DNA from: a virus | Strand: one strand, 5' to 3' | Virus record (IMG/VR): IMGVR_UViG_3300042868_007959 | Span: 1 to 64,000 of that record | DNA: 64,000 nucleotides | In this document: positions 12,105 to 48,461 of the stretch, piece by piece | Layout of the letters: the number at the start of each line of letters is the position of its first letter | How positions within the stretch are numbered: the first letter of the stretch is position 1 | Notes under the pieces: generated by a model | The model's input: only the letters and a program-made list of their open reading frames with translations | Told to the model about the DNA's origin: nothing | Database searches by the model: none | Made by a program: the position numbers and the translations under genes

Positions 12105-13445
12105 TCAATGATATATAGGATCTCGTACACCCCATTCATTTATTAGTATTTGATTTATTTCATTAATATAATCTTCCCACACACTATATGATTCGTCTTT
12201 AGTTAATCCATAAGTGTCACTACAATAGTTAAAGAAATCCTCCCTATCGAAATGCATAATTCTACTATATACTAAATGAGTAAAAGGGACGAAGATATTT
12301 ATCCAATCCGATGGCCACATACGATGAGGTTCTATTTGTGTATCATTTACAATAAATTCTAAAACTTTATCTAAATAATTTTTTCTCCTATCATTAGATT
12401 CTTTTATTAACCTATCCCTTTTAGGAAATTTATCAAACATAATCTTACTATATTTTTCCCACACAACATCAAACTCTTCTGAAGTTGTACCATAATGTTT
12501 ATTACAGTAATCTGAAAATTCATTATAAAATACTTCATTCGGTGATAATAAGGACATAAATGAAGAATAAAAATTTATCGATGGGTATACTATCATTTGT
12601 AATTTAGGGACAATACTTGTATCACCAATTAAAGATTCTACAACCTTATCTAAAAATCTATTATTAGTTTCTACCGATTCATTAAGACTATTATCTTCCA
12701 TTTTATCCTCTAATTCTTTTTTTAATTTGGTGAATAATATTTTTATATACCTATTAAAAATTTCTAATATTAGAGATGTATCGGTTATTCCATACTGATT
12801 ACTTATGTAATTTACTTCTACATCATTTAATGGATAGTCTCCCATAAAATTTAAATGATAATCTGCCCCATTCCAATCCTCAGTATATATCTCACCATCA
12901 CCATAAAATGGATATACAATTCTCGCCACAGGTTCGTCTTTAATTGTTTTAATCTTATATTGAGTATCTTCTAACATAAAATTAACAATCTTATCTATAA
13001 CCATATTTTCTTTATCCCCTACAGATTCATTAAGACTATTTTCACTATAATCATCTGAATACCCTTCAGAGTTTTCATAATATATTGCCATACTCTTATC
13101 ATTATATTCGTATTTTTCCCAGTACCCATCACTCTCTTCATAATATATCATATTCCCCATTTCATCGTAATCTCTTAATGTCCACGGACCATTATCCCAC
13201 TCAACGTATAAAGGAAGTTTAGGTGGGTTAGTAGGGATATTAATAGATATAATTGTTGCCTCACTATTTATATTTCTATCTATTTCTAAAGAATTTTTAT
13301 CTTTATTAAAAAGTAATGAAAATACATCTAACCATTTATCGGTAGGTATTTTGAACATCCTTAAGTCCTCAATATAAGGGGGTTTCATAACACTTACTAC
13401 CTTTTGGGAGTAATTATCATCATTTATAGATTCATTAATTTTCAT
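12105..13445 (-). CDS. Four-part modular polyprotein
   Basis: 446 residues. It opens MKINESINDDN, with an INE|S site within the first five residues. The first part resembles the N-terminal YD-like part of the 7857-9017 protein (RDYDEMGNMIYYEESDGYWE). Three DDT modules follow, each after SLNESV, SLNESV and LIKESN linkers (KIVNFMLEDTQYKI; KVVESLIGDTSIV ... YGTTSEEFDVVWEKY; KVLEFIVNDTQIE ... YGLTKDESYSVWEDY). A TATTTAT box (complement of 13451-13457) ends 5 bases before the ATG. Confidence 0.8.
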   Translation of the reverse strand: MKINESINDDNYSQKVVSVMKPPYIEDLRMFKIPTDKWLDVFSLLFNKDKNSLEIDRNINSEATIISINIPTNPPKLPLYVEWDNGPWTLRDYDEMGNMIYYEESDGYWEKYEYNDKSMAIYYENSEGYSDDYSENSLNESVGDKENMVIDKIVNFMLEDTQYKIKTIKDEPVARIVYPFYGDGEIYTEDWNGADYHLNFMGDYPLNDVEVNYISNQYGITDTSLILEIFNRYIKILFTKLKKELEDKMEDNSLNESVETNNRFLDKVVESLIGDTSIVPKLQMIVYPSINFYSSFMSLLSPNEVFYNEFSDYCNKHYGTTSEEFDVVWEKYSKIMFDKFPKRDRLIKESNDRRKNYLDKVLEFIVNDTQIEPHRMWPSDWINIFVPFTHLVYSRIMHFDREDFFNYCSDTYGLTKDESYSVWEDYINEINQILINEWGVRDPIYH

Positions 13446-15014: not shown

Positions 15015-15337
15015 TTGTTAAAAATTTCAAGGTATAAATCTATTATGTATTGTCCATACCAATTCCAAATTTTATTTGATGTATCAAAATCCAATCCGTA
15101 ATGTCTATCCATAATCGTATAAAAACATTCAGGTACCAACTCAAAAAACGGATTATACCTTGAATGGTTTAAATGTATAGATATGTTACAATCAAATAAA
15201 TACCAATGGTATCCTTTTAGTTCTGTATTGGTTATTATGTCATTTATGACATAATCATTAAATCTTTTATTATCACTTATATTTACAGATTCATTAATAA
15301 GTCTTTTGAATTGATTTTCTGTTATAATAATCTTCAT
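15011..15337 (-). CDS. Tagged single DDT-module protein
   Basis: 108 residues from the ATG at 15337, which starts exactly with the tag MKIIITENQFKRLI then NES. After the INE|S site comes one diverged DDT module (FNDYVINDIITNTEL ... MDRHYGLDFDTSNKIWNWYG). This directly shows the tag and the module sharing the same type of cut site. ATGA overlaps at both ends. Confidence 0.78.
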   Translation of the reverse strand: MKIIITENQFKRLINESVNISDNKRFNDYVINDIITNTELKGYHWYLFDCNISIHLNHSRYNPFFELVPECFYTIMDRHYGLDFDTSNKIWNWYGQYIIDLYLEIFNK

Positions 15338-15651
15338 TTTAAAAATCCCCAATCTTGTATTTCATATAATTTTTGCATATATAGTTTCCAAACAATAAGA
15401 CACTCCTGTCCAGTAAGACCATAGGTGTCCTTACAATAATGATCAAAATAAATTAACTGAGAATCTAATCCACTATATACGGTGTTGTCTAATAAACCAA
15501 ATGTATGTTTAAAAACTGATCTAAATCCTGTTCTACCTGCAGTACTTCTACCATTACCTATATAATAAGGTGGATTAAACCAAGTATTACCTATTTCGGT
15601 ATCATCCACAAGGTACTCCACAATCTTATTTAAATATATCTCTTTATCCAT
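15334..15651 (-). CDS. Single DDT-module protein
   Basis: 105 residues that are one complete module: MDKEIYLNKIVEYLVDDTEI at the start and YCKDTYGLTGQECLIVWKLY near the end. It is the simplest version and defines the module length of about 100 residues. It has no N-terminal tag of its own. ATGA overlap with the gene downstream. Confidence 0.78.
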   Translation of the reverse strand: MDKEIYLNKIVEYLVDDTEIGNTWFNPPYYIGNGRSTAGRTGFRSVFKHTFGLLDNTVYSGLDSQLIYFDHYCKDTYGLTGQECLIVWKLYMQKLYEIQDWGFLK

Positions 15652-16005: not shown

Positions 16006-16830
16006 TCACTTAAGTAAGTTATAGTACTCTTTGAAGTGTTTTATTCTATCAGGTAAACCAATTGTACCCCCATTTACTCTTTTTGTGACTGCGGTTACTG
16101 TTGAATCGTCCGCACCTTTGTCACAGATACTCCATAACTTATTAGAATCAAAAAAGAACGCCGCAGATGCCAATGGATACTTAGTCGCAACCAAATCAGG
16201 GTTAGAAACACAATCTTCACCGATAAATTTGGTAAAATTAGTGTAATTTGACTTACCAGTTAACTGAATATACCCTCTACCTCTAAATTTAAACCCTTCT
16301 TTGGTAGTTTCGTCACCATTACCCATTCTACTTGCGTAAACACGAGCCGCAATCTTCTCAGGTTGACGTGCATATGACTCATTTAAGTTACCTGGAAAGT
16401 ATTTACCAAATATTTTCTTCAAACCGTCCGCAGAATAGTTTAAATTCTCTGAAACTGCCTTAAAACCACCTGATTCGTGACCACATTGAGCTAAAAAGTG
16501 AGCTAAACGTAAGTTATTTGTAATATTAAACTTTTTTGCAGTCTCAGGAATCTGTGCAATGACAGAATCAGGTATATGACCCTTTAATTTTTCAATATTT
16601 AATGACCCACCTGAAGGAATTACAACATCTTCTTTTATTATTACGGTTGACCCAAACATTTTTAACCATGTTCCGTCACCAACAACACCATCTGAGGTTA
16701 ATCCATTAGCCGATTGCCATTCTTTTACCGCTTTTTCTGTTCCGGGTCCGAATGATCCATCCGCAGTAAGACCTAATTTTGTTTGGAGTTTTTTTACGTC
16801 TTCTCCTTTAGACCCATTTTTTAATAACAT
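16006..16830 (-). CDS. Endolysin: peptidoglycan-binding plus GH19 lysozyme/chitinase-like domain
   Basis: 274 residues. Residues 1-62 form a peptidoglycan-binding type 1 domain (GSKGEDVKKLQTKLGLTADG, TEKAVKEWQSANGLTSDG). Residues ~85-274 form a glycoside hydrolase 19-type domain: HFLAQCGHESGGFKAVSENL carries the catalytic Glu, with FRGRGYIQLTGKSNYTNF and VTKRVNGGTIGLPDRI further on. GH19 enzymes of phages cut the glycan of peptidoglycan. No signal peptide, so a holin would be needed for release; the membrane protein at 16953 is the nearest candidate. Length is usual for modular phage endolysins. A TATTTAT box lies 16 bases before the ATG. Confidence 0.9.
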   Translation of the reverse strand: MLLKNGSKGEDVKKLQTKLGLTADGSFGPGTEKAVKEWQSANGLTSDGVVGDGTWLKMFGSTVIIKEDVVIPSGGSLNIEKLKGHIPDSVIAQIPETAKKFNITNNLRLAHFLAQCGHESGGFKAVSENLNYSADGLKKIFGKYFPGNLNESYARQPEKIAARVYASRMGNGDETTKEGFKFRGRGYIQLTGKSNYTNFTKFIGEDCVSNPDLVATKYPLASAAFFFDSNKLWSICDKGADDSTVTAVTKRVNGGTIGLPDRIKHFKEYYNLLK

Positions 16831-16894
16831 AACCTTTAATTTTATAATAAATATTCTAAAAATATTTTAAATCTTTTTTTAGTGAATATATGTA

Positions 16895-16924
16895 ATAAAA
16901 AAAACCCAGTATTTTAACTGGGTT
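16895..16924 (-). terminator. Rho-independent terminator
   Basis: AACCCAGT (16903-16910) pairs with ACTGGGTT (16917-16924), with an A-run to the left that becomes the U-run of minus-strand transcripts. It separates the two-component/membrane-protein operon from the endolysin gene. Confidence 0.72.
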
Positions 16925-16952
16925 CTTATTTTAATTAAATATTCTCATCTTC

Positions 16953-17435
16953 TTAGTTTATTTCACCATCTACCGATGATTCTTCTGTAGGGTACTCCTC
17001 AACAACCAAAGGAGTTTCTTCTTTAACTTGTGTATCTACAACAGTTGATCCTTGTGGTGGTCTTGGTGTTGTCGGATATTCCGCAACATTAGAAAAACTA
17101 TTTCCGTCTTCCTCATCAACTTTCTGAATTAACATCTTATCTCTGTCTTCAGAGTTGAACCAATAATCAACAACTTTATTAAGATTACCTACGAAGGCCC
17201 CGAATAAAATTAACAACATTTCTTTCCAGTTTTCTGCAATTTCAATTTGAAACATAACTGCCATATTAATACCAAAAATAATGAAGAAAAACAAGAATAA
17301 AATAATCCCTGTAATCTTCCATCTATTAGATTGCATTTGTTGCAACATATAATAGAAACGATTTTTATCCTCCACTTTAACATAAGGAGTTTCCCCGAAT
17401 AACATTTTTTTTAATCTACTTACCATTTTTTTCAT
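16953..17435 (-). CDS. Two-span membrane protein, holin candidate
   Basis: 160 residues with two hydrophobic segments (WKITGIILFLFFFIIFGINM and MLLILFGAFVGNLNKVVDYW), followed by FNSEDRDK and a Pro/Glu-rich cytoplasmic tail. The pattern of a second span ending in an aromatic residue and a small charged loop is common in phage holin-like proteins. It sits two genes away from the regulator genes and next to the endolysin. It could instead belong to the two-component cluster. Function not proven. Confidence 0.65.
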   Translation of the reverse strand: MKKMVSRLKKMLFGETPYVKVEDKNRFYYMLQQMQSNRWKITGIILFLFFFIIFGINMAVMFQIEIAENWKEMLLILFGAFVGNLNKVVDYWFNSEDRDKMLIQKVDEEDGNSFSNVAEYPTTPRPPQGSTVVDTQVKEETPLVVEEYPTEESSVDGEIN

Positions 17436-17443
17436 TTTTTTTA

Positions 17444-18124
17444 TTATTTATCTTTGTTAGGACTTGCACCATATTTTACCCCAAGTATTGTCCCCACTAT
17501 ACTGAAACTATTTGTTAACAGAATACCAAACATATTACTCCAAGTGGATCCAATAATCTCAGTATCCTTTCCTATTGTCATAGAATAAACATATATTCCC
17601 GTTGTGACACACCCAACACCTATAATTACATAAAGTGCAACCTTAACAATATTATTAATCAACTCAAACTGAGTTTTCTTTTGAACTATATCTAAATTGT
17701 TTTCTGCCTCATTTTTAGCATTTTCTGCAACGACTCTTGCCTGTTCAGATTGTTTCATAGCCTCAATCAGTTCGGCACTTATTTTTTCATTCTCTAGTTT
17801 CCATTCAAGAAGTTCAGAGTTTTGACTTTCAATCCGATTGTTTTGATCCTCCATACTGGTTAAAGTATTTTGGAGTTCCTCCACCATTCTTTGGTTTTCA
17901 TCGTTGAGTATAGTCAAATCTTTGTTCTGAACCTGAACCTGTTTGGTTACCTCCAAACGTTTACGTCTAGAATCTTTATCTTTATCCGTACATTTTTTTA
18001 AATAGTCTTTAAACAAATCGTTGTCCGATTCAAACAACTTAATAATGTTTCCTTCAAGTCCGATATTCTTGGACTCAAAGAGTTTAATTAAATTGTTTTC
18101 ACTATTTTTATCTAACTTTATCAT
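17444..18124 (-). CDS. Coiled-coil protein with two C-terminal membrane spans
   Basis: 226 residues: a short N-terminal part with two copies of IKLFES, a long coiled coil (about residues 50-150, rich in Gln, Asn and Glu), then VALYVIIGVGCVTTGIYVY and FGILLTNSFSIVGTILGVKY. The last span plus GASPNKDK is holin-like. Its start overlaps the response-regulator stop (ATGA), so it belongs to the same transcript as the kinase and regulator. It could be a spanin-, sensor- or holin-like partner; not resolved. Confidence 0.65.
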   Translation of the reverse strand: MIKLDKNSENNLIKLFESKNIGLEGNIIKLFESDNDLFKDYLKKCTDKDKDSRRKRLEVTKQVQVQNKDLTILNDENQRMVEELQNTLTSMEDQNNRIESQNSELLEWKLENEKISAELIEAMKQSEQARVVAENAKNEAENNLDIVQKKTQFELINNIVKVALYVIIGVGCVTTGIYVYSMTIGKDTEIIGSTWSNMFGILLTNSFSIVGTILGVKYGASPNKDK

Positions 18125-18558
18125 TTATATACTTTGAAAGGTAAGGTTCTATTTTTATAACCTTCATAATCTTTTCTGAACTCCTCTAAACGTGGCTCAA
18201 TGTCGTCAGATTTGATAATCCAAAACTGAGCTCCCGCTTGAACTGCCTTTGATTGTTCTTCTGGTTCGTTTGATGATGAAATAATTCCAACAACTACGTG
18301 ATTACCGTATTCAAAATTAATTTTTCTAATTAATTCTATACCATCAAAAGAACTACCAATGATGTTTAAATCAACAAACACACAATCAGGTTTATCATTA
18401 TCATCCCCACTTTTGAACCATTTTTCGAATTTTTTTGCCGCTTCGTCAGAACTATTTAACGCGTTTAAAGACAAACTTATGTCAAGTAACGAACAAGCGT
18501 CCTCAAATACTAAATGGAATAAATCCTCGTCATCCACCAATAAAATTGAATCAATCAT
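18121..18558 (-). CDS. Stand-alone response regulator receiver protein
   Basis: 145 residues, one receiver domain and no output domain. Key residues are present: D9, D10 acidic pocket (ILLVDDED), D63 phospho-acceptor (CVFVDLNI), S94 (GIISSSN) and K116 (WIIKSDD). A CheY-like single-domain regulator acts by binding a partner. The partner may be the coiled-coil membrane protein, whose ATG overlaps this stop. The histidine kinase gene lies 12 bases upstream. Very unusual in a phage. Confidence 0.88.
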   Translation of the reverse strand: MIDSILLVDDEDLFHLVFEDACSLLDISLSLNALNSSDEAAKKFEKWFKSGDDNDKPDCVFVDLNIIGSSFDGIELIRKINFEYGNHVVVGIISSSNEPEEQSKAVQAGAQFWIIKSDDIEPRLEEFRKDYEGYKNRTLPFKVYK

Positions 18559-18570
18559 TTTTTTCTTTTT

Positions 18571-20169
18571 TTATTTTATTTTTATTTTCATTTTAGTTCC
18601 TATTTCATTTTTCTCACAAGTAATTTTAAACTTGTGTTCTTCCAAAATTGCAACGCAAATATTTAATCCCAAACCAGTACCTGATTCCTTTTGTCCTTCT
18701 TTTCTTGTATATGGTTTACATAGGTAATCAAAATCTTCTTGTGTTAACCCCCTACCATTATCTTGAATGTAAACAGTATTCTCATCAGAATATATTTTAA
18801 CAAACTTAGTGTCAGAATCATTGTACTTTAAACCATTCCTGATTAAGTTGTCAACTGCAGTACAGAATAACGCTTCGTTTACTTCTATTGTTGGTAAGTC
18901 CTCAATAATTACTTGACTACTATATGCGGTTGATGATAGGTAATCAGATAGTATCACTTTTAAATCGCATTCCGCCTTATTTAAAACAACATCTTTTTTA
19001 ACAAGATTTGTAAACTCATATACCCCTTTATACACTTTTTGTGAATGTTTAAGACCTTCCTTAATCATTCTAATTGGTGCCTCTATTTTTAAATCGGTAA
19101 TGTCTTCGGGTTTTAATCTTCTTTCTAAAGAACTTAATCCTCTTGGCATATATGTATTGATACCTGAGTGCATATCGTGTCTTAATATTTTAGCGGCATG
19201 TTCTAAATAAGTGTTCTTTTTTTCAATCTCTTTCTTTTGTTCGTGAGTAGTGGTGACATCTGTTGCAATTTTCATAACACGATAAATCTTACCATCCATA
19301 CCAATGATTGGATTATAGGTTGCTTGAAGATGTATTAAGGAACCATCCTTTTTAACTCTAGTGATTTCACCAGTAAATAATATACCATCATTTAATTTTT
19401 CCCAAAAAAGAGAATATTCCTCACTTTTTGAGTGGTCCTCATCTATAAAAATCCTATGGTGTTTCCCAACCACTTCATCCAGTGATGAATATCCCATAGT
19501 ATTTAAAAACAATTCATTAGCGAAAATTATATTCCCCTTCAAATCAAACTCAATAACAGCGTTGGATTTATTTATCGCGTTCATTCTATTACGAATTTCC
19601 ACTTCTTTTTTCTTAAGATCTGTAACATCTTGTCTAATTGATGAGAATCCCTCCAACTTACCGTGTTTGTCAAATTTTGCCTTGATGTAGGTATCGACAT
19701 AATATAGTTCACCTGATTTTCCTTTGTTGGTAACAACATCATTCCATATCTCACCTTTCATTACTTTTTCATACATTTTACCCCAATATCCATCAGGTTG
19801 TAATCCTGAGTTTACAATAACATGATCCTTACCTTTAACCTCATCTAAAGACCAACCTGAAACATCCTCAAACTTTTTATTAACGTATGTAATTTTACCG
19901 TATTTATCGGCAACAGAAACGATGGTTGCAGAATCAATAAAATCTTCACTATCTTTTATTTGTTTTAATAAACCATCTTTTAACTCTACGGTTTGGGATT
20001 TCATTAAAAAATAAAATAATGGAGAAAATAATAAAAAGCAAGATATCTCAATAATTTTTGTTATATCAGTGGATCCAATAATCCCCGATAAAACAAAAAT
20101 TTTAGTTAAAAGAAAAGTAACCATCAAGATTACAGAAGGTATTATTAATAATTTACGTTTTTTAATCAT
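18571..20169 (-). CDS. Membrane PAS-PAS sensor histidine kinase
   Basis: 532 residues: two membrane spans (about 8-31 and 37-56), PAS domain 1 (about 75-185), PAS domain 2 (about 200-310, with DGKIYRVMKIATDVT), a dimerisation/phosphoacceptor region with H331 in ILRHDMHSGI, and a HATPase domain with N-box (DNLIRNGLKYND), G1 (IQDNGRGL, D470) and G2 (SGTGLGLNIC). All catalytic landmarks are intact, so it is probably active. It almost certainly phosphorylates the regulator encoded next. A TATTTAT box ends 4 bases before the ATG. The codon and base use look like the neighbours, so this is not an obvious recent insertion. Confidence 0.9.
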   Translation of the reverse strand: MIKKRKLLIIPSVILMVTFLLTKIFVLSGIIGSTDITKIIEISCFLLFSPLFYFLMKSQTVELKDGLLKQIKDSEDFIDSATIVSVADKYGKITYVNKKFEDVSGWSLDEVKGKDHVIVNSGLQPDGYWGKMYEKVMKGEIWNDVVTNKGKSGELYYVDTYIKAKFDKHGKLEGFSSIRQDVTDLKKKEVEIRNRMNAINKSNAVIEFDLKGNIIFANELFLNTMGYSSLDEVVGKHHRIFIDEDHSKSEEYSLFWEKLNDGILFTGEITRVKKDGSLIHLQATYNPIIGMDGKIYRVMKIATDVTTTHEQKKEIEKKNTYLEHAAKILRHDMHSGINTYMPRGLSSLERRLKPEDITDLKIEAPIRMIKEGLKHSQKVYKGVYEFTNLVKKDVVLNKAECDLKVILSDYLSSTAYSSQVIIEDLPTIEVNEALFCTAVDNLIRNGLKYNDSDTKFVKIYSDENTVYIQDNGRGLTQEDFDYLCKPYTRKEGQKESGTGLGLNICVAILEEHKFKITCEKNEIGTKMKIKIK

Positions 20170-20245
20170 ACAAATAAATATAGAAAAAATATTAAAAACT
20201 ATTTACTTTAATTAATTTTTTCATATTTATAAAAAAATTAAAATT

Positions 20246-20842
20246 ATGAACTATACAAAAGAACAGGTTGAGGCTGCCGTAAAAGCCAAAGGTTATGTTT
20301 GGTTTGAGGACGCAAACAATAAAGGGTATGATGTAAACATTGTCGGTATTAGAAATTCAAGTACTGGACAAAAAGTGACTAACGTATTTGACGATTACAT
20401 AACATTATCTTACAAAGTTGATGGACAATGGAAATTCCATATTTGGCCAGCAACTACTGATCCAGGTACTAAAGGTGTTATGCAATTTGGTAACAAGGCA
20501 GGTGTCGCAAGATTAGTAGAGGGACAATACAGAGGGTCACATACAATGAGACTTCATGCTGGGAAATATGAAGCATTGGGTCAAAACAAACCAGTTAAAG
20601 TTTTCAGAGATCCTAATAAGAATATGGAATATGATGAAAATAAAATTCAAGAAGGTGTATTTGGAATTAATATACACAAAGCAGGTGCCGACTCAACTTA
20701 TGTTGAAAATTGGTCAGAAGGTTGTCAAGTGTTTAAAAAGTCAAAGGACTTTGAAGAATTTATGTCTATCTGTAGGAAAGCAAAAGGGGTACACGGTAAT
20801 TCATTTACCTATACACTAATCGAAACTAACGACATTAAATAA
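20246..20842 (+). CDS. YkuD-like L,D-transpeptidase-like protein
   Basis: 198 residues. The motif GINIHKAG...ENWSEGCQVF carries the His and the Ser-x-Gly-Cys of the YkuD L,D-transpeptidase catalytic site, preceded by long conserved beta stretches (NIVGIRNSSTGQKVTNVFDD, WKFHIWPATTDPGTKGVM, GQYRGSHTMRLHAGKYEALG). Many phages of Gram-negative hosts carry this protein, usually unannotated. It may cut or remodel peptidoglycan, for example in lysis or entry. A TATTTAT box (20224-20230) lies 15 bases before the ATG; a terminator follows. Divergent from the kinase gene. Confidence 0.78.
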   Translation: MNYTKEQVEAAVKAKGYVWFEDANNKGYDVNIVGIRNSSTGQKVTNVFDDYITLSYKVDGQWKFHIWPATTDPGTKGVMQFGNKAGVARLVEGQYRGSHTMRLHAGKYEALGQNKPVKVFRDPNKNMEYDENKIQEGVFGINIHKAGADSTYVENWSEGCQVFKKSKDFEEFMSICRKAKGVHGNSFTYTLIETNDIK

Positions 20843-21013: not shown

Positions 21014-21397
21014 ATGAAAAGAACCATTAAAAGAATATTAAAGGAAGAACTAACCGAAACAGAATATATGGGCGGAATTATTCCCTCACATTTTTTAGAG
21101 GAACTGGGAATTAAATTATTTAAAGAAGAAGATGTTGCCAGTCTTACAGAAATACAATTCGATACAAAACGTGTTGTAATAGATCTTTTTACTCTTGACG
21201 GAGACGAAGGATATGGTAGTTATGAAGATGCGATGAGTATACCTGATGGTTTTCAATACCAATACGGTTTTAACATTAATGATTTACCTGTAAGTTTTAT
21301 AAAGTACTTAATAAAAGAACTGAATGATAACTATGGTACCAATTATTTGTACCCATTTTTAGATATAATACCAAAAGGTATGTTTAAGAACCTTTAA
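21014..21397 (+). CDS. Tagged hypothetical protein
   Basis: 127 residues. Tag MKRTIKRILKEELTETEY (ILKE then E). Acidic alpha/beta body with no recognised domain (VVIDLFTLDGDEGYGSYED). It is a plus-strand member of the tag family. A TATTTAT box (21002-21008) ends 5 bases before the ATG. Its 3' end overlaps the end of the giant polyprotein gene by 14 bases on the other strand. Confidence 0.75.
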   Translation: MKRTIKRILKEELTETEYMGGIIPSHFLEELGIKLFKEEDVASLTEIQFDTKRVVIDLFTLDGDEGYGSYEDAMSIPDGFQYQYGFNINDLPVSFIKYLIKELNDNYGTNYLYPFLDIIPKGMFKNL

Positions 21398-23642
21398 TAT
21401 AAGAATCAAATTTATCTATAATGATATTTTTATATGTATCCCATACATATTTAATATCGTCATCAGTCAAACCATACATATCTTTAGTATAATTAGAAAA
21501 AGAAGCGGGATAATTAATACGAAAAAGTAAATTATAACTTAAAGAAGATAGACGGTAAAAAGGTGCGAAGAATATATCGTCATTAATCGAAACTTTAGTA
21601 TCAGCCACAAGAAATTCCACAATTTTATTTAGATATTCATCTTTTCTATCTACAGATTCATTAATTCTATCACCATTCTTTTTTAATAACATTTCTTCAT
21701 ATATAATAGTAGATAATTTTTGTATGTATCTATCATATAACTCTTGTACAGTATCTATATCACATATACTATAAGTGTTACAAATATAATCTATATCTTC
21801 TCCTTCATCTAAATTAAAACCACTACCATTTGACCAATCATAAATATCATATATACTATAATCATATGCATCCTCATCCACATCCTCATCAGGATTAGTA
21901 AAAGGGTACCATATTTCTACTTTAGTTTCTGAATGATCACTAAACCTATTAATGTAAATATTATATTCGGTATCGTCTATCATAAAATCTACAATCTTAT
22001 TTAGATAATCAGATTTTCTATCTACAGATTCATTTATATTATTACCTTTAACCCTTAACATATCATCGTATATTTTAGTGAATAATTTCTCAGTGTATTT
22101 TTTAAATATATCTTCTATGGTTTTTACACTACGTATATTGTACACATCCCACATATATTCAATCTCCACTCTATTAAGGATATATTCACTCGATTCCTTA
22201 ATAGTAGATACCTCATATATAGTATAAGGGAATCCAGAGTCTTGTGCAGAATAAGGATACCTTATATAGACAAAAATTTCTGTAGAATCGACATTATATT
22301 GGGAAATACTAAGTTCATATTCGGTATCGTCTACCATATAATCAGAAATCTTATCTATTAGATCATCCTTTCTATCCACTGATTCATTAATGGGGACTTT
22401 AAATATATTAAGGATATTTTTTTTATATTTACTCCACACCCCTTTTACTTCTGAATTAGTTAACCCATAACTATCTTTACAATAGTTAAAAAAGTTTCTT
22501 TTCAACATATCATCAGATATTTTTTTTAAGTAGACTGTAGAAAACCATATAGATGCAAACGATGGTTTAAAAATTCCAAAATCTCCTTCTCCCATAGATA
22601 TTTCCGTGTCATCTACAAGAAATCCCACAATCTTATCTAAATAATCAGATTTTCTATCCACAGATTCGTTAATGGTAGGTACACCATTAATGATAGAAAA
22701 CCCATTAATTTTAGGGGTTAAAACTTTAAGATATCTTTTCCATAATTTTCTTATTTCCTCATCATCTGTCAATCCATACGTGTCTTTACAATAGTTAAAA
22801 AAGTTTCTTACATAAGAATTACCAATAAGATATTTTAATTCTAAATGATCTGTCATAGGTATTAGACCATAGAAATGATTAAAAGTAGGTTTAGCGTGAC
22901 CAGTAGGATAAGGTGGATACCACACTTTATTCTTTTGATCCACCATAGTGTCATCCACAAGGTAATCTATAATTTTATCCATATATTCACCTTTAGAAAT
23001 TTTATCCACAGATTCATTAATATTATCCTTACCAAATACAATATCCCTCATAACATCCTTATATGTTTCCCATACATAAACAATACCCTCTTCTGAAGTA
23101 ATTCCAAACGACTCATCAATGTATTCCATAAAACCGTCTATAGGGATATATGTCTCAAAAAGAAGTCTGTGAAAAGGTGTGAAATTATTACTACCTTGTC
23201 TAAGTGATCTCTTATATGTAAAAGGAAAAAATATCATCCTATTTTCATAGTCTACTTTAGTATCATCTACAAGAAATCCCACAACCTTATCTAAATATCT
23301 TTTTTTATTATCCACAGATTCATTAATGGGTTTAAGATCATACATAATAGATTCTTTATTATATCTATCCTTAATAATGGTTTTATAGTTGTCCCATATA
23401 TATTTTGTCTCATCGTAATTTAAACCATATGTATCCCTACAAGTTATCTGAACATCTGAAGGCATACCCCACGAAAGTTTATTTTTTAAATCATCGATAA
23501 AACTAGGTAAAGGTTTACCATTCGGACCTATCGGAGAAAAAGGATATATTATAACACCCGTTTCATATCTAATTATAGTATCATCAACAAACCACTTAAG
23601 AATCTTATCTAAATATATTTTTTTATTATCTTCCATATCCAT
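21384..23642 (-). CDS. Seven-module DDT polyprotein
   Basis: 752 residues made of seven copies of the DDT module. Each starts with a form of YLDKIV.FLVDDT and most end with YCKDTYGLT..E...VW..Y. Six linkers read INESVD: KPINES (cut after E108), DNINES, PTINES, VPINES, NNINES, DRINES. Modules five and six are a second subtype (DDTEYELS, DDTEYNIY, followed by beta stretches and a late YMWD/YICN motif). There is no N-terminal tag other than the module itself. If cut at each INE|S the product would be seven proteins of about 90-125 residues. Function of the module unknown. Confidence 0.88.
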   Translation of the reverse strand: MDMEDNKKIYLDKILKWFVDDTIIRYETGVIIYPFSPIGPNGKPLPSFIDDLKNKLSWGMPSDVQITCRDTYGLNYDETKYIWDNYKTIIKDRYNKESIMYDLKPINESVDNKKRYLDKVVGFLVDDTKVDYENRMIFFPFTYKRSLRQGSNNFTPFHRLLFETYIPIDGFMEYIDESFGITSEEGIVYVWETYKDVMRDIVFGKDNINESVDKISKGEYMDKIIDYLVDDTMVDQKNKVWYPPYPTGHAKPTFNHFYGLIPMTDHLELKYLIGNSYVRNFFNYCKDTYGLTDDEEIRKLWKRYLKVLTPKINGFSIINGVPTINESVDRKSDYLDKIVGFLVDDTEISMGEGDFGIFKPSFASIWFSTVYLKKISDDMLKRNFFNYCKDSYGLTNSEVKGVWSKYKKNILNIFKVPINESVDRKDDLIDKISDYMVDDTEYELSISQYNVDSTEIFVYIRYPYSAQDSGFPYTIYEVSTIKESSEYILNRVEIEYMWDVYNIRSVKTIEDIFKKYTEKLFTKIYDDMLRVKGNNINESVDRKSDYLNKIVDFMIDDTEYNIYINRFSDHSETKVEIWYPFTNPDEDVDEDAYDYSIYDIYDWSNGSGFNLDEGEDIDYICNTYSICDIDTVQELYDRYIQKLSTIIYEEMLLKKNGDRINESVDRKDEYLNKIVEFLVADTKVSINDDIFFAPFYRLSSLSYNLLFRINYPASFSNYTKDMYGLTDDDIKYVWDTYKNIIIDKFDSYIKGS

Positions 23643-24760: not shown

Positions 24761-25786
24761 TTATCTATTATAATTTATCATTTCTTCATATATAATAGGA
24801 CGTAGTTTATTTATATATCTATTATATAGTTCTTGTGTGATCCATCTTTGAGTTATACCAAATTGTTCTTCTAAATAATCTCTATCAGTTTCATTCAGAA
24901 AGAACTGTTCCCAGTCTACTTCCATTTCATCCATTTGAAATTCATCAGAGTCACCACTAGGGAAAGTTATCTCCACTCTTACATGTCGTTCTAAGTCATC
25001 TTCACCTAATTCTTCCATAAAGATATCCCATGTGGTGTCTTGTACCATAAAGTCTACTATTCTATTAAGTGTATCCTCTTTTCTTTCTACAGATTCATTC
25101 ATAGGGTTTTTAGATGATCCTAATAGTTCTTTTACTTTATCATATAATAAAGAATAATACCTTTGAGATATATTAGTAATAAGATTCCAATCTTTTATAC
25201 TATATGTATCATTAACATAATTAACAAAATTCAAATCATAACCTCTCCTTAATAATAATGGTAATACTTTATCAATACTGTATGAGTTAAATCCTTCAGA
25301 AGGGTAAACTATTACCACTCTATCTCTATGAAAATAGTATTCAGTATCATCTAACATATACTGTGAGATCTTATCTACTAATAGATCTTCCTTATTCTCT
25401 TTAGATTCATTCATTGGTTTACGTTCATAATTATCAAAGTCGTTTAATATGTTTGTAAATAAGATTGTATAATACTTTAAATATATTTTTTCTAGAATGG
25501 TTTCATCTTTTATACTATAGTTGTCATCCATATAGTTATAATCATATAAATTAAAAAAGATTACATCCACCCCTTTCTCTTTAAAATCATTTAGATGAGA
25601 TCTAATTTCACTCTCATTTAAATATATTAGATAATTATACATTGGATATTTTACCTCACATATTATCTCACCCATAAACCTATGGTAGACTTCATATGTA
25701 GTATCACCCAGTAGACTCTCTACAACTCTATCTACTAATAGATCCTCTCTATTCTCTTTAACAATACCTTTAATGGTTACCTTCAT
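24761..25786 (-). CDS. Three-module DDT polyprotein
   Basis: 341 residues. It starts MKVTIKGIVKENREDLLVDR, where the tag-like start (VKE|N) flows directly into module one (VVESLLGDTTYEV). Two linkers PMNESK and PMNESV precede modules two (KISQYMLDDTEYYF) and three (RIVDFMVQDTTWDI). All three belong to the second subtype with beta stretches such as VEITFPSGDSDEF and a late YL/YVNDTYSI. The linkers use Met at the third position before the cut (MNE|S). A TATTTAT box lies before the ATG. Confidence 0.82.
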   Translation of the reverse strand: MKVTIKGIVKENREDLLVDRVVESLLGDTTYEVYHRFMGEIICEVKYPMYNYLIYLNESEIRSHLNDFKEKGVDVIFFNLYDYNYMDDNYSIKDETILEKIYLKYYTILFTNILNDFDNYERKPMNESKENKEDLLVDKISQYMLDDTEYYFHRDRVVIVYPSEGFNSYSIDKVLPLLLRRGYDLNFVNYVNDTYSIKDWNLITNISQRYYSLLYDKVKELLGSSKNPMNESVERKEDTLNRIVDFMVQDTTWDIFMEELGEDDLERHVRVEITFPSGDSDEFQMDEMEVDWEQFFLNETDRDYLEEQFGITQRWITQELYNRYINKLRPIIYEEMINYNR

Positions 25787-47383: not shown

Positions 47384-47911
47384 ATGAATATTTTTGTTTT
47401 AGATTACGACACAAAAAAATGTGCACAAATGCATTGTGATAAACATGTTGTTAAAATGATTTTAGAGACTGCACAGTTACTCTGCGGTGTACACCATATG
47501 ACAAACAGTGTAAGTGACATAGAAGTACCATATAAGTTATCTCATAGGAATCACCCATGTTCTATTTGGGTAAGGGGTTGTGTTGAGAATTATGTATGGT
47601 TATGTGATTTAGGTATCGAACTATGTAAAGAATATACATATAGATATGGTAAGCGACATAAATCACAGGATGTGATCGAGTGGTGTATGTTAAATATACC
47701 TAATATTAAAGAGATTGGTGATATCACACCTTTTCCATTGGCAATGAATGACGAATGTAAAATAAATGGTGAGGTAGTAGAATCTTACAGAAAATACTAT
47801 ATTATGTATAAGAAAGATTTTGCTAAATGGACTGGTAGAGAAATTCCTTTATGGTTTAATCCTTCAAATGATTCATCAGTACCCCACCAAGTGAAGATAC
47901 TTGTCTCATAA
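47384..47911 (+). CDS. Conserved phage protein of unknown function
   Basis: 175 residues from the ATG at 47384, chosen because it starts the conserved block MNIFVLDYDTKKCAQMHCDK then HVVKMILETAQLLC. Later motifs: LSHRNHPCSIWVRGCVENYV, CKEYTYRYGKRHKSQDVIEW, TPFPLAMNDE and YRKYYIMYKKDFAKWTGREI. I have seen closely similar proteins in marine phages, without a known function. Conserved His, Cys and Asp residues suggest an enzyme. Its 3' end overlaps the 47856 gene on the other strand by 56 bases. Confidence 0.7.
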   Translation: MNIFVLDYDTKKCAQMHCDKHVVKMILETAQLLCGVHHMTNSVSDIEVPYKLSHRNHPCSIWVRGCVENYVWLCDLGIELCKEYTYRYGKRHKSQDVIEWCMLNIPNIKEIGDITPFPLAMNDECKINGEVVESYRKYYIMYKKDFAKWTGREIPLWFNPSNDSSVPHQVKILVS

Positions 47912-48461
47912 TCTCATTTATTGCGGCATCCCCTAAAGAAACTTTTCTTTTAGTATAGTCAATACCTAAGACACCGATAAATCTATCATCAATACTTTTT
48001 ATTGCGAATAAATAACCTGATTTGCAACTATTTTCTTCTGCAATATATTTTAAACCGTATGTGGGAATAGTATCATCCTTAAAATCAGGTATTTTAATCA
48101 CATCATTATTAACCAATTCATTCAGTGATTTTGAAAATAGGTTAACAGGTATATTCTGTAAACTATGTTGTATGGATGAAGCCCCAATACCAACTGTTTC
48201 ATAGATAATTGAGAATTTTGCGATAGATTTACCTGTTGGGTAAAAATGACCACCATTATGGAATTGTGTCACCCATATCCTATCGGCATTATTATCTCCC
48301 TTTATCTCATCAATTTTATGTGTAACTAATTCACTTACTTGAAGTACCTCTGCAACCATATCAGGTTTTTTAGTTTTTCTTTTCTCAACCCAATTTTTGA
48401 CTAAAAATATTGTAACTGGACTTATGACACCAGTGATAAATGCAATCGCTATCTCAACCAT
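47856..48461 (-). CDS. Membrane-anchored GAF-like protein
   Basis: 201 residues. An N-terminal span (IAIAFITGVISPVTIFLVKN) is followed by a charged linker and a domain with DRIWVTQFHNGGHFYPTGKS, IYETVGIGASSIQHSLQNIP and KSGYLFAIKSIDDRFIGVLG, the layout of a GAF-type sensor domain. The ligand is unknown. A TATTTAT box lies about 20 bases upstream. Confidence 0.65.
   Translation of the reverse strand: MVEIAIAFITGVISPVTIFLVKNWVEKRKTKKPDMVAEVLQVSELVTHKIDEIKGDNNADRIWVTQFHNGGHFYPTGKSIAKFSIIYETVGIGASSIQHSLQNIPVNLFSKSLNELVNNDVIKIPDFKDDTIPTYGLKYIAEENSCKSGYLFAIKSIDDRFIGVLGIDYTKRKVSLGDAAINEIMRQVSSLGGVLMNHLKD

Follow-up and report, generated by a model that had tools for sequence, protein, structure and literature searches.

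A kinase, response regulator and coiled-coil membrane protein triplet among the lysis genes of large aquatic phages: a candidate phosphorelay for lysis timing

Why would a phage carry a complete two-component system beside its lysis genes? Lysis timing is usually viewed as the work of an intrinsic holin clock, so a sensor-switch pair and a membrane protein among lysis genes raise the question of whether the virus reads its host. We examined this locus in a 64-kb stretch of DNA (the window), which is the first part of a virus record of 253,879 bp. The major head protein of this virus is T4-type (phrog_138), and among the closest catalogued relatives of its capsid protein are an uncultured phage of 484 kb and Flavobacterium phages with ~40% identity. 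The features of the locus are as follows.

18571..20169, minus strand: membrane histidine kinase (HK), 532 aa (translation, Pfam, alignment)
18121..18558, minus strand: single-domain response regulator (RR), 145 aa (translation, Pfam, alignment)
17444..18124, minus strand: coiled-coil membrane protein (CC), 226 aa (translation, alignment, AlphaFold2 model)
16953..17435, minus strand: holin-like membrane protein, 160 aa, with an acidic C-terminal tail, starting 8 bp past CC
16900..16927, minus strand: intrinsic-terminator-like hairpin closing the HK-RR-CC-holin run (sequence)
16006..16830, minus strand: endolysin, 274 aa, PG_binding_1 and Glyco_hydro_19 (GH19) (Pfam, PHROG)
20246..20842, plus strand: second endolysin-like gene, divergent from HK (phrog_3000; phrog_33083 endolysin, 4.8e-10)
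20174..20181, minus strand: promoter-like element ATATTTAT upstream of HK (enrichment only)
16847..16854, minus strand: promoter-like element ATATTTAT upstream of the endolysin (enrichment only)
12105-13445, 15334-15651, 21384-23642 and 24761-25786, minus strand: genes of an ~85-aa multicopy domain (sequence motif)

Translation bore out the layout described in the first-pass annotation, in which the start of CC overlaps the stop of RR (ATG over stop codon, with an overlap of 4 nt) and a holin-like gene and an endolysin follow. Since HK, RR, CC and the holin-like gene stop at the terminator-like hairpin, the endolysin is apparently a separate transcript. The GH19 enzyme was called endolysin by PHROG at 1.9e-66, and Pfam gave no convincing match in the CC or the holin-like protein of the window. 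The multicopy domain (YLDKIVxFLVDDT...YGLTxxExxxVWxxY), present in up to seven tandem copies per protein, flanks the lysis and two-component region.

The same annotation had described HK as a kinase with intact H, N, G1 and G2 boxes, and the family alignment agreed. HK has two hydrophobic segments at its N-terminus, two PAS domains (PAS1, ~aa 77-190; PAS2, ~aa 204-306), a dimerisation region (DHp) with H331 and a HATPase_c domain (aa 435-531; Pfam, 2.4e-14). The dimerisation region was not matched by the Pfam HisKA model, and the H box (RHDMHSGINTYMPRG) was taken from the alignment, where its histidine is kept in 34 of 34 aligned kinases. H331, N445, DNGRG (470-474) and GLG (499-501) showed no or almost no variation across the family sets examined. 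HK thus carries the phospho-accepting His and the ATP-binding N, G1 and G2 boxes of a two-component kinase.

PAS1 matched MmoS (4e-22), Aer (4e-16) and NifL (2e-8), which are FAD redox or energy sensors. It has the sequence hallmarks of an FAD-type redox PAS domain, including the HxIVNS and W...N motifs, and a strict pattern detected both motifs in 77 of the 142 loci, a lower bound. These similarities suggest that the HK of the window, with predicted FAD binding at PAS1, probably senses redox or energy state. Sensor architectures differ across loci, comprising PAS-PAS, GAF-PAS-PAS and a further type seen in a second kinase of one sub-group. This second HK has one TM segment close to its N-terminus and another around residue 180-220; the two bracket ~170 residues, and the kinase is likely a periplasmic sensor. 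Directly ahead of it, in L065 (6041-6658) and ~20 further loci, lies a gene for a secreted protein, c6 (motif YPIxTIxxGDSVVIL...QS), which in some loci overlaps the kinase gene and is thereby translationally coupled to it. c6 may be a ligand of the second kinase or a spanin-like protein; its structure was predicted at low confidence (mean pLDDT 61).

RR was matched by Response_reg (2.7e-9) and consists of a receiver without an output domain, as the first reading had proposed together with D63 and K116. D9, D10, D63 and K116 were invariant in 99 of 99 RR sequences, so that the acidic pair, the phospho-acceptor Asp and the Lys of a two-component receiver are all in place. Cellular relatives were sought in the phylum of one bin and in plasmids. 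No close relative was found among the plasmid proteins searched, the nearest plasmid-borne RRs being ~26-30% identical.

The 50,697 catalogued phage records contained neither RR nor CC relatives, and matches to HK were partial only, covering PAS or kinase. IMG/VR held at least 593 stretches with a relative of RR, 105 with a relative of HK and 253 with a relative of CC, and gene order was kept. The claim that two-component systems are almost unknown in phages therefore stands for catalogued phages but fails for environmental phages, where the triplet is common. The search for related triplets elsewhere had been proposed in the first-pass annotation, which named absence from related phages together with flanks of recent host DNA as grounds for abandoning its view; neither was seen. 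Carriers are large phages of lakes and seas, and the triplet is widespread in aquatic phages.

The first set of RRs was at least 73% identical to that of the window, and a scan with the RR motif only added further, more divergent loci. All sources pooled gave 180 distinct RR genes. HK lay upstream in 176 of the 180, and three loci had no HK despite adequate sequence. CC lay downstream in all 176 that had enough sequence, the other four being cut off by the end of the contig. The RR and CC genes overlapped in 155 loci, by 4 nt in 108 and by 1 nt in 47. A few loci have insertions inside the triplet. One is a GIY-YIG homing endonuclease (phrog_314) placed precisely between HK and RR (L136:10161-10883, L053, L184, L198), and one sub-group has an added multi-TM protein of ~165 aa between RR and CC (L288:3283-3783, L317:5141-5635). 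Because hundreds of relatives retain gene order and active sites, the triplet of the window is not a chance arrangement.

The lowest median dN/dS values were those of RR (0.08) and the HK core (0.09); CC had 0.17 and the sensor half of HK 0.34, the last value being inflated by domain exchange. These ratios indicate strong purifying selection on RR and the kinase core. Together with the varied sensor architectures, the ratios point to variable input and constant output.

CC consists of a small N-terminal region with an invariant EGN, a long cytosolic coiled coil and a C-terminal two-helix membrane hairpin. In the AlphaFold2 model (mean pLDDT 84) the small N-terminal part is followed by a helix at 36-184 and a second membrane helix at 189-219. 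Invariant residues are numerous in the hairpin (W195, N197, GILLTN, FSI, GTI, KY), which is more conserved than the coiled coil. Comparison with solved structures gave coiled-coil noise only, and Foldseek with the model returned one uncharacterised phage homologue, the rest being noise. When the CC alignment was used in a pattern-based scan of 84,980 species genomes from bacteria and archaea, a single locus was confirmed; virus contigs in IMG/VR are 98-100% identical to it and its neighbour genes are phage-like. On these sequence comparisons CC is a viral protein. The one cellular exception is a contig of a published bacterial bin, L234 (CAJQGZ010000002.1); it carries the triplet, matches IMG/VR virus contigs exactly or almost exactly, and is likely a misbinned phage.

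We then asked how far CC resembles a holin. Weak matches to phrog_1544 were obtained for 27 of 41 CC sequences (best 1.3e-5). This family is holin-like: its profile hits, at 3.9e-10, a protein of phage DSL-LC04 that is annotated 'Holin of 3TMs' and whose gene adjoins a peptidase. Run against the genome of the window and seven other whole virus records, phrog_1544 had matches in all but one. Located by conversion of locus coordinates, these fell only on CC hairpins, adjacent holin-like proteins or a 3TM holin; in the window's genome the holin-like protein was the sole segment matched (E 0.02). The E-values are weak (7e-6 to 0.02) and cellular control genomes also give such scores at E <=1. The location of the matches, not their score, therefore carries the argument. 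CC also has a large cytosolic coiled coil, and hhalign of its profile was not significant against either the few 3TM holins compared or the holin-like gene of the window. We accordingly do not claim CC-holin homology.

The link to lysis drawn in the first reading holds far beyond the window. Among 88 distinct loci whose sequence reaches 3 kb to either side, a cell-wall hydrolase lay within 3 kb of the triplet in 46, and a hydrolase or a small holin-like gene in 65, counts that overstate independent events because the loci are related. For comparison, positions no more than 5 kb from such genes make up ~6% of the window's genome. Four unrelated hydrolase families were found near triplets, namely GH19, phrog_33083-like, Amidase_2 and DUF5675, and in divergent phages the triplet lies within complete lysis cassettes. 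The order in L317 is Amidase_2, PF05105 holin, small TM protein, HK, RR, TM protein and CC. In L305 it is DUF5675, small TM protein, HK, RR, CC, an ORF and lastly a lipoprotein carrying a TM at its C-terminus, which is u-spanin-like in that it is laid out as a unimolecular spanin would be. In L301, HK is preceded by a PF05105 holin and by a coiled protein of periplasmic type; in L243 the neighbours are a TM protein and a small lipoprotein whose C-terminal part includes a hydrophobic stretch. Two small neighbouring families, c4 and c17, are holin-like by topology alone, c17 matching phrog_20 at 0.03. With the few families screened, a recognised lysis gene was absent within reach in 16 of 61 loci, a few of which have other holin- or spanin-like neighbours. 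A tree of 60 triplets shows at least 18 changes in the position or strand of the GH19 gene, which is in the locus in about half of the cases and so does not represent one frozen arrangement. By gene content, what the neighbours of the triplet have in common is lysis function, rather than one inherited block.

Of 139 first HKs, 47 have the element ATATTTAT upstream, as do 17 of 59 endolysins; it precedes 1 RR among 169, 2 CCs among 166 and 19% of other genes. This distribution is consistent with one transcript beginning ahead of HK. In the 253,879-bp record it is enriched 12-28 nt ahead of start codons (52 forward, 22 reverse). It is a possible late promoter of these phages. Because it precedes HK and, in the window's genome, many structural genes, its placement suggests that the triplet is expressed late. 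The T4 late promoter TATAAATA showed no convincing enrichment (16 seen against 10 expected from shuffles, and 34 in reverse orientation).

The best reading of the locus, and one we consider fairly probable, is a phage phosphorelay that would set lysis timing through CC. It draws on the intact catalytic residues, the near-obligate triplet, purifying selection, the virus-only CC and the lysis neighbourhood; phosphotransfer, the binding of RR to CC and the sign of its effect, as well as the signal and the influence on lysis, are what we infer from them. In this scheme the membrane HK would read the infected cell, sensing redox or energy state in the phage of the window and a periplasmic signal in the kinases of the sub-group, and would hand its phosphate to the single-domain RR. 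As RR has no DNA-binding or output domain, RR-phosphate should work through protein contact, the kind of gating that the first reading suggested, and it would meet the translationally coupled CC at the tip of the cytosolic rod. Binding would switch the holin-like membrane hairpin of CC between a permissive and a restraining state. By itself or together with the neighbouring holin-like protein, CC would then either release hole formation or hold it back, and lysis would thereby follow the condition of the cell. More tentatively, CC could be a phosphorylation-controlled holin or antiholin and the system the first viral phosphorelay, reading the redox, energy or envelope state of the host, with RR-phosphate contacting CC to time lysis; this specific version is possible, and we hold it with some reserve.

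An unlikely alternative, but the one that fits best after this reading, is that HK and RR turn on CC upon envelope attack, CC being a superinfection-exclusion or membrane-protection protein and not a lysis timer. The second HK of the sub-group, with its likely periplasmic sensor coupled in some loci to the secreted c6, would suit such a role, and exclusion proteins are often small membrane proteins. However, the genes around the triplet are cell-wall hydrolases and holins, not early immunity genes, and ATATTTAT is common to structural and lysis genes. Exclusion also overlaps with lysis timing, since T4 lysis inhibition unites both roles.

RR might instead target the host (e.g. motility or host signalling), with CC merely a membrane tether or sink for RR. 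Bacterial single-domain regulators commonly work through protein contact, and RR is more conserved than CC, as this would predict. We regard it as distinctly improbable, because CC is present in every testable triplet and translationally coupled to RR, its hairpin is better conserved than its coiled coil, and even the nearest RRs on plasmids are distant. That HK, RR and CC are recently captured host genes, passenger or auxiliary and without a dedicated viral role, is highly improbable: the HK and RR domains do belong to cellular families, but the triplet recurs in viral stretches by the hundred with fixed order, low dN/dS and a virus-only third gene, the plasmid proteins searched held no close relative, and the conserved family and the virus-only CC rule out recent host DNA.

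A lysis timer of this kind would resemble several known systems in part. It shares with bacterial HK and CheY-like RR systems the H, N, G1 and G2 boxes, the acidic pair, D63, K116 and adjacent genes. Unlike them, the triplet is virus-borne in hundreds of contigs and coupled to a virus-only membrane protein, its RR has no output domain and its H region is unmatched by Pfam HisKA. Staphylococcal LytSR with CidAB/LrgAB is a two-component system tied, as proposed here, to cell lysis and to membrane proteins that resemble holins. There the regulator, LytR, binds DNA and acts on transcription, whereas the RR of the triplet, a 145-aa receiver alone, lacks the LytTR DNA-binding domain and has a co-translated membrane partner. 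In T4 lysis inhibition, which involves holin T and the antiholins RI and RIII, a signal in the infected cell changes holin triggering. The likeness lies in the T4-related lineage and in such a signal, proposed for the triplet; to our knowledge T4 lysis inhibition has no kinase or phosphorelay, whereas the triplet has a kinase and CC has a long cytosolic coiled coil.

If the phosphorelay reading is true, many environmental phages measure the host before lysing, by means of a conserved kinase, regulator and membrane effector, and viruses keep a two-component pathway with a new type of output protein. Viruses may thus read host state for timing their escape, and the triplet makes the question of the lysis-timing signal directly testable.

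Phage-encoded signalling proteins are on record. The C. difficile phage phiCDHM1 carries host-derived quorum-sensing agrDBC with an AgrC-type kinase, in which no response regulator was found (PMC3901668); it resembles the triplet in encoding a histidine kinase-type protein, whereas the triplet has both HK and RR. cREC, a divergent receiver which a survey of 224 jumbo phages found with NAD/ADPr enzymes and never in HK systems (PMC7824862), is likewise a receiver-like domain of jumbo phages, as RR is of large phages. The canonical receiver residues and the adjacent HK rule out that RR is a cREC. Among the open-access full texts searched, we found no phage two-component pair of such a kind. A further protein, c16, has an N-terminal TM and a GAF-like C-terminal part; it lies near the triplet in several relatives (e.g. 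L018:10918-11526) and away from it in the phage of the window (47856-48461, minus strand).
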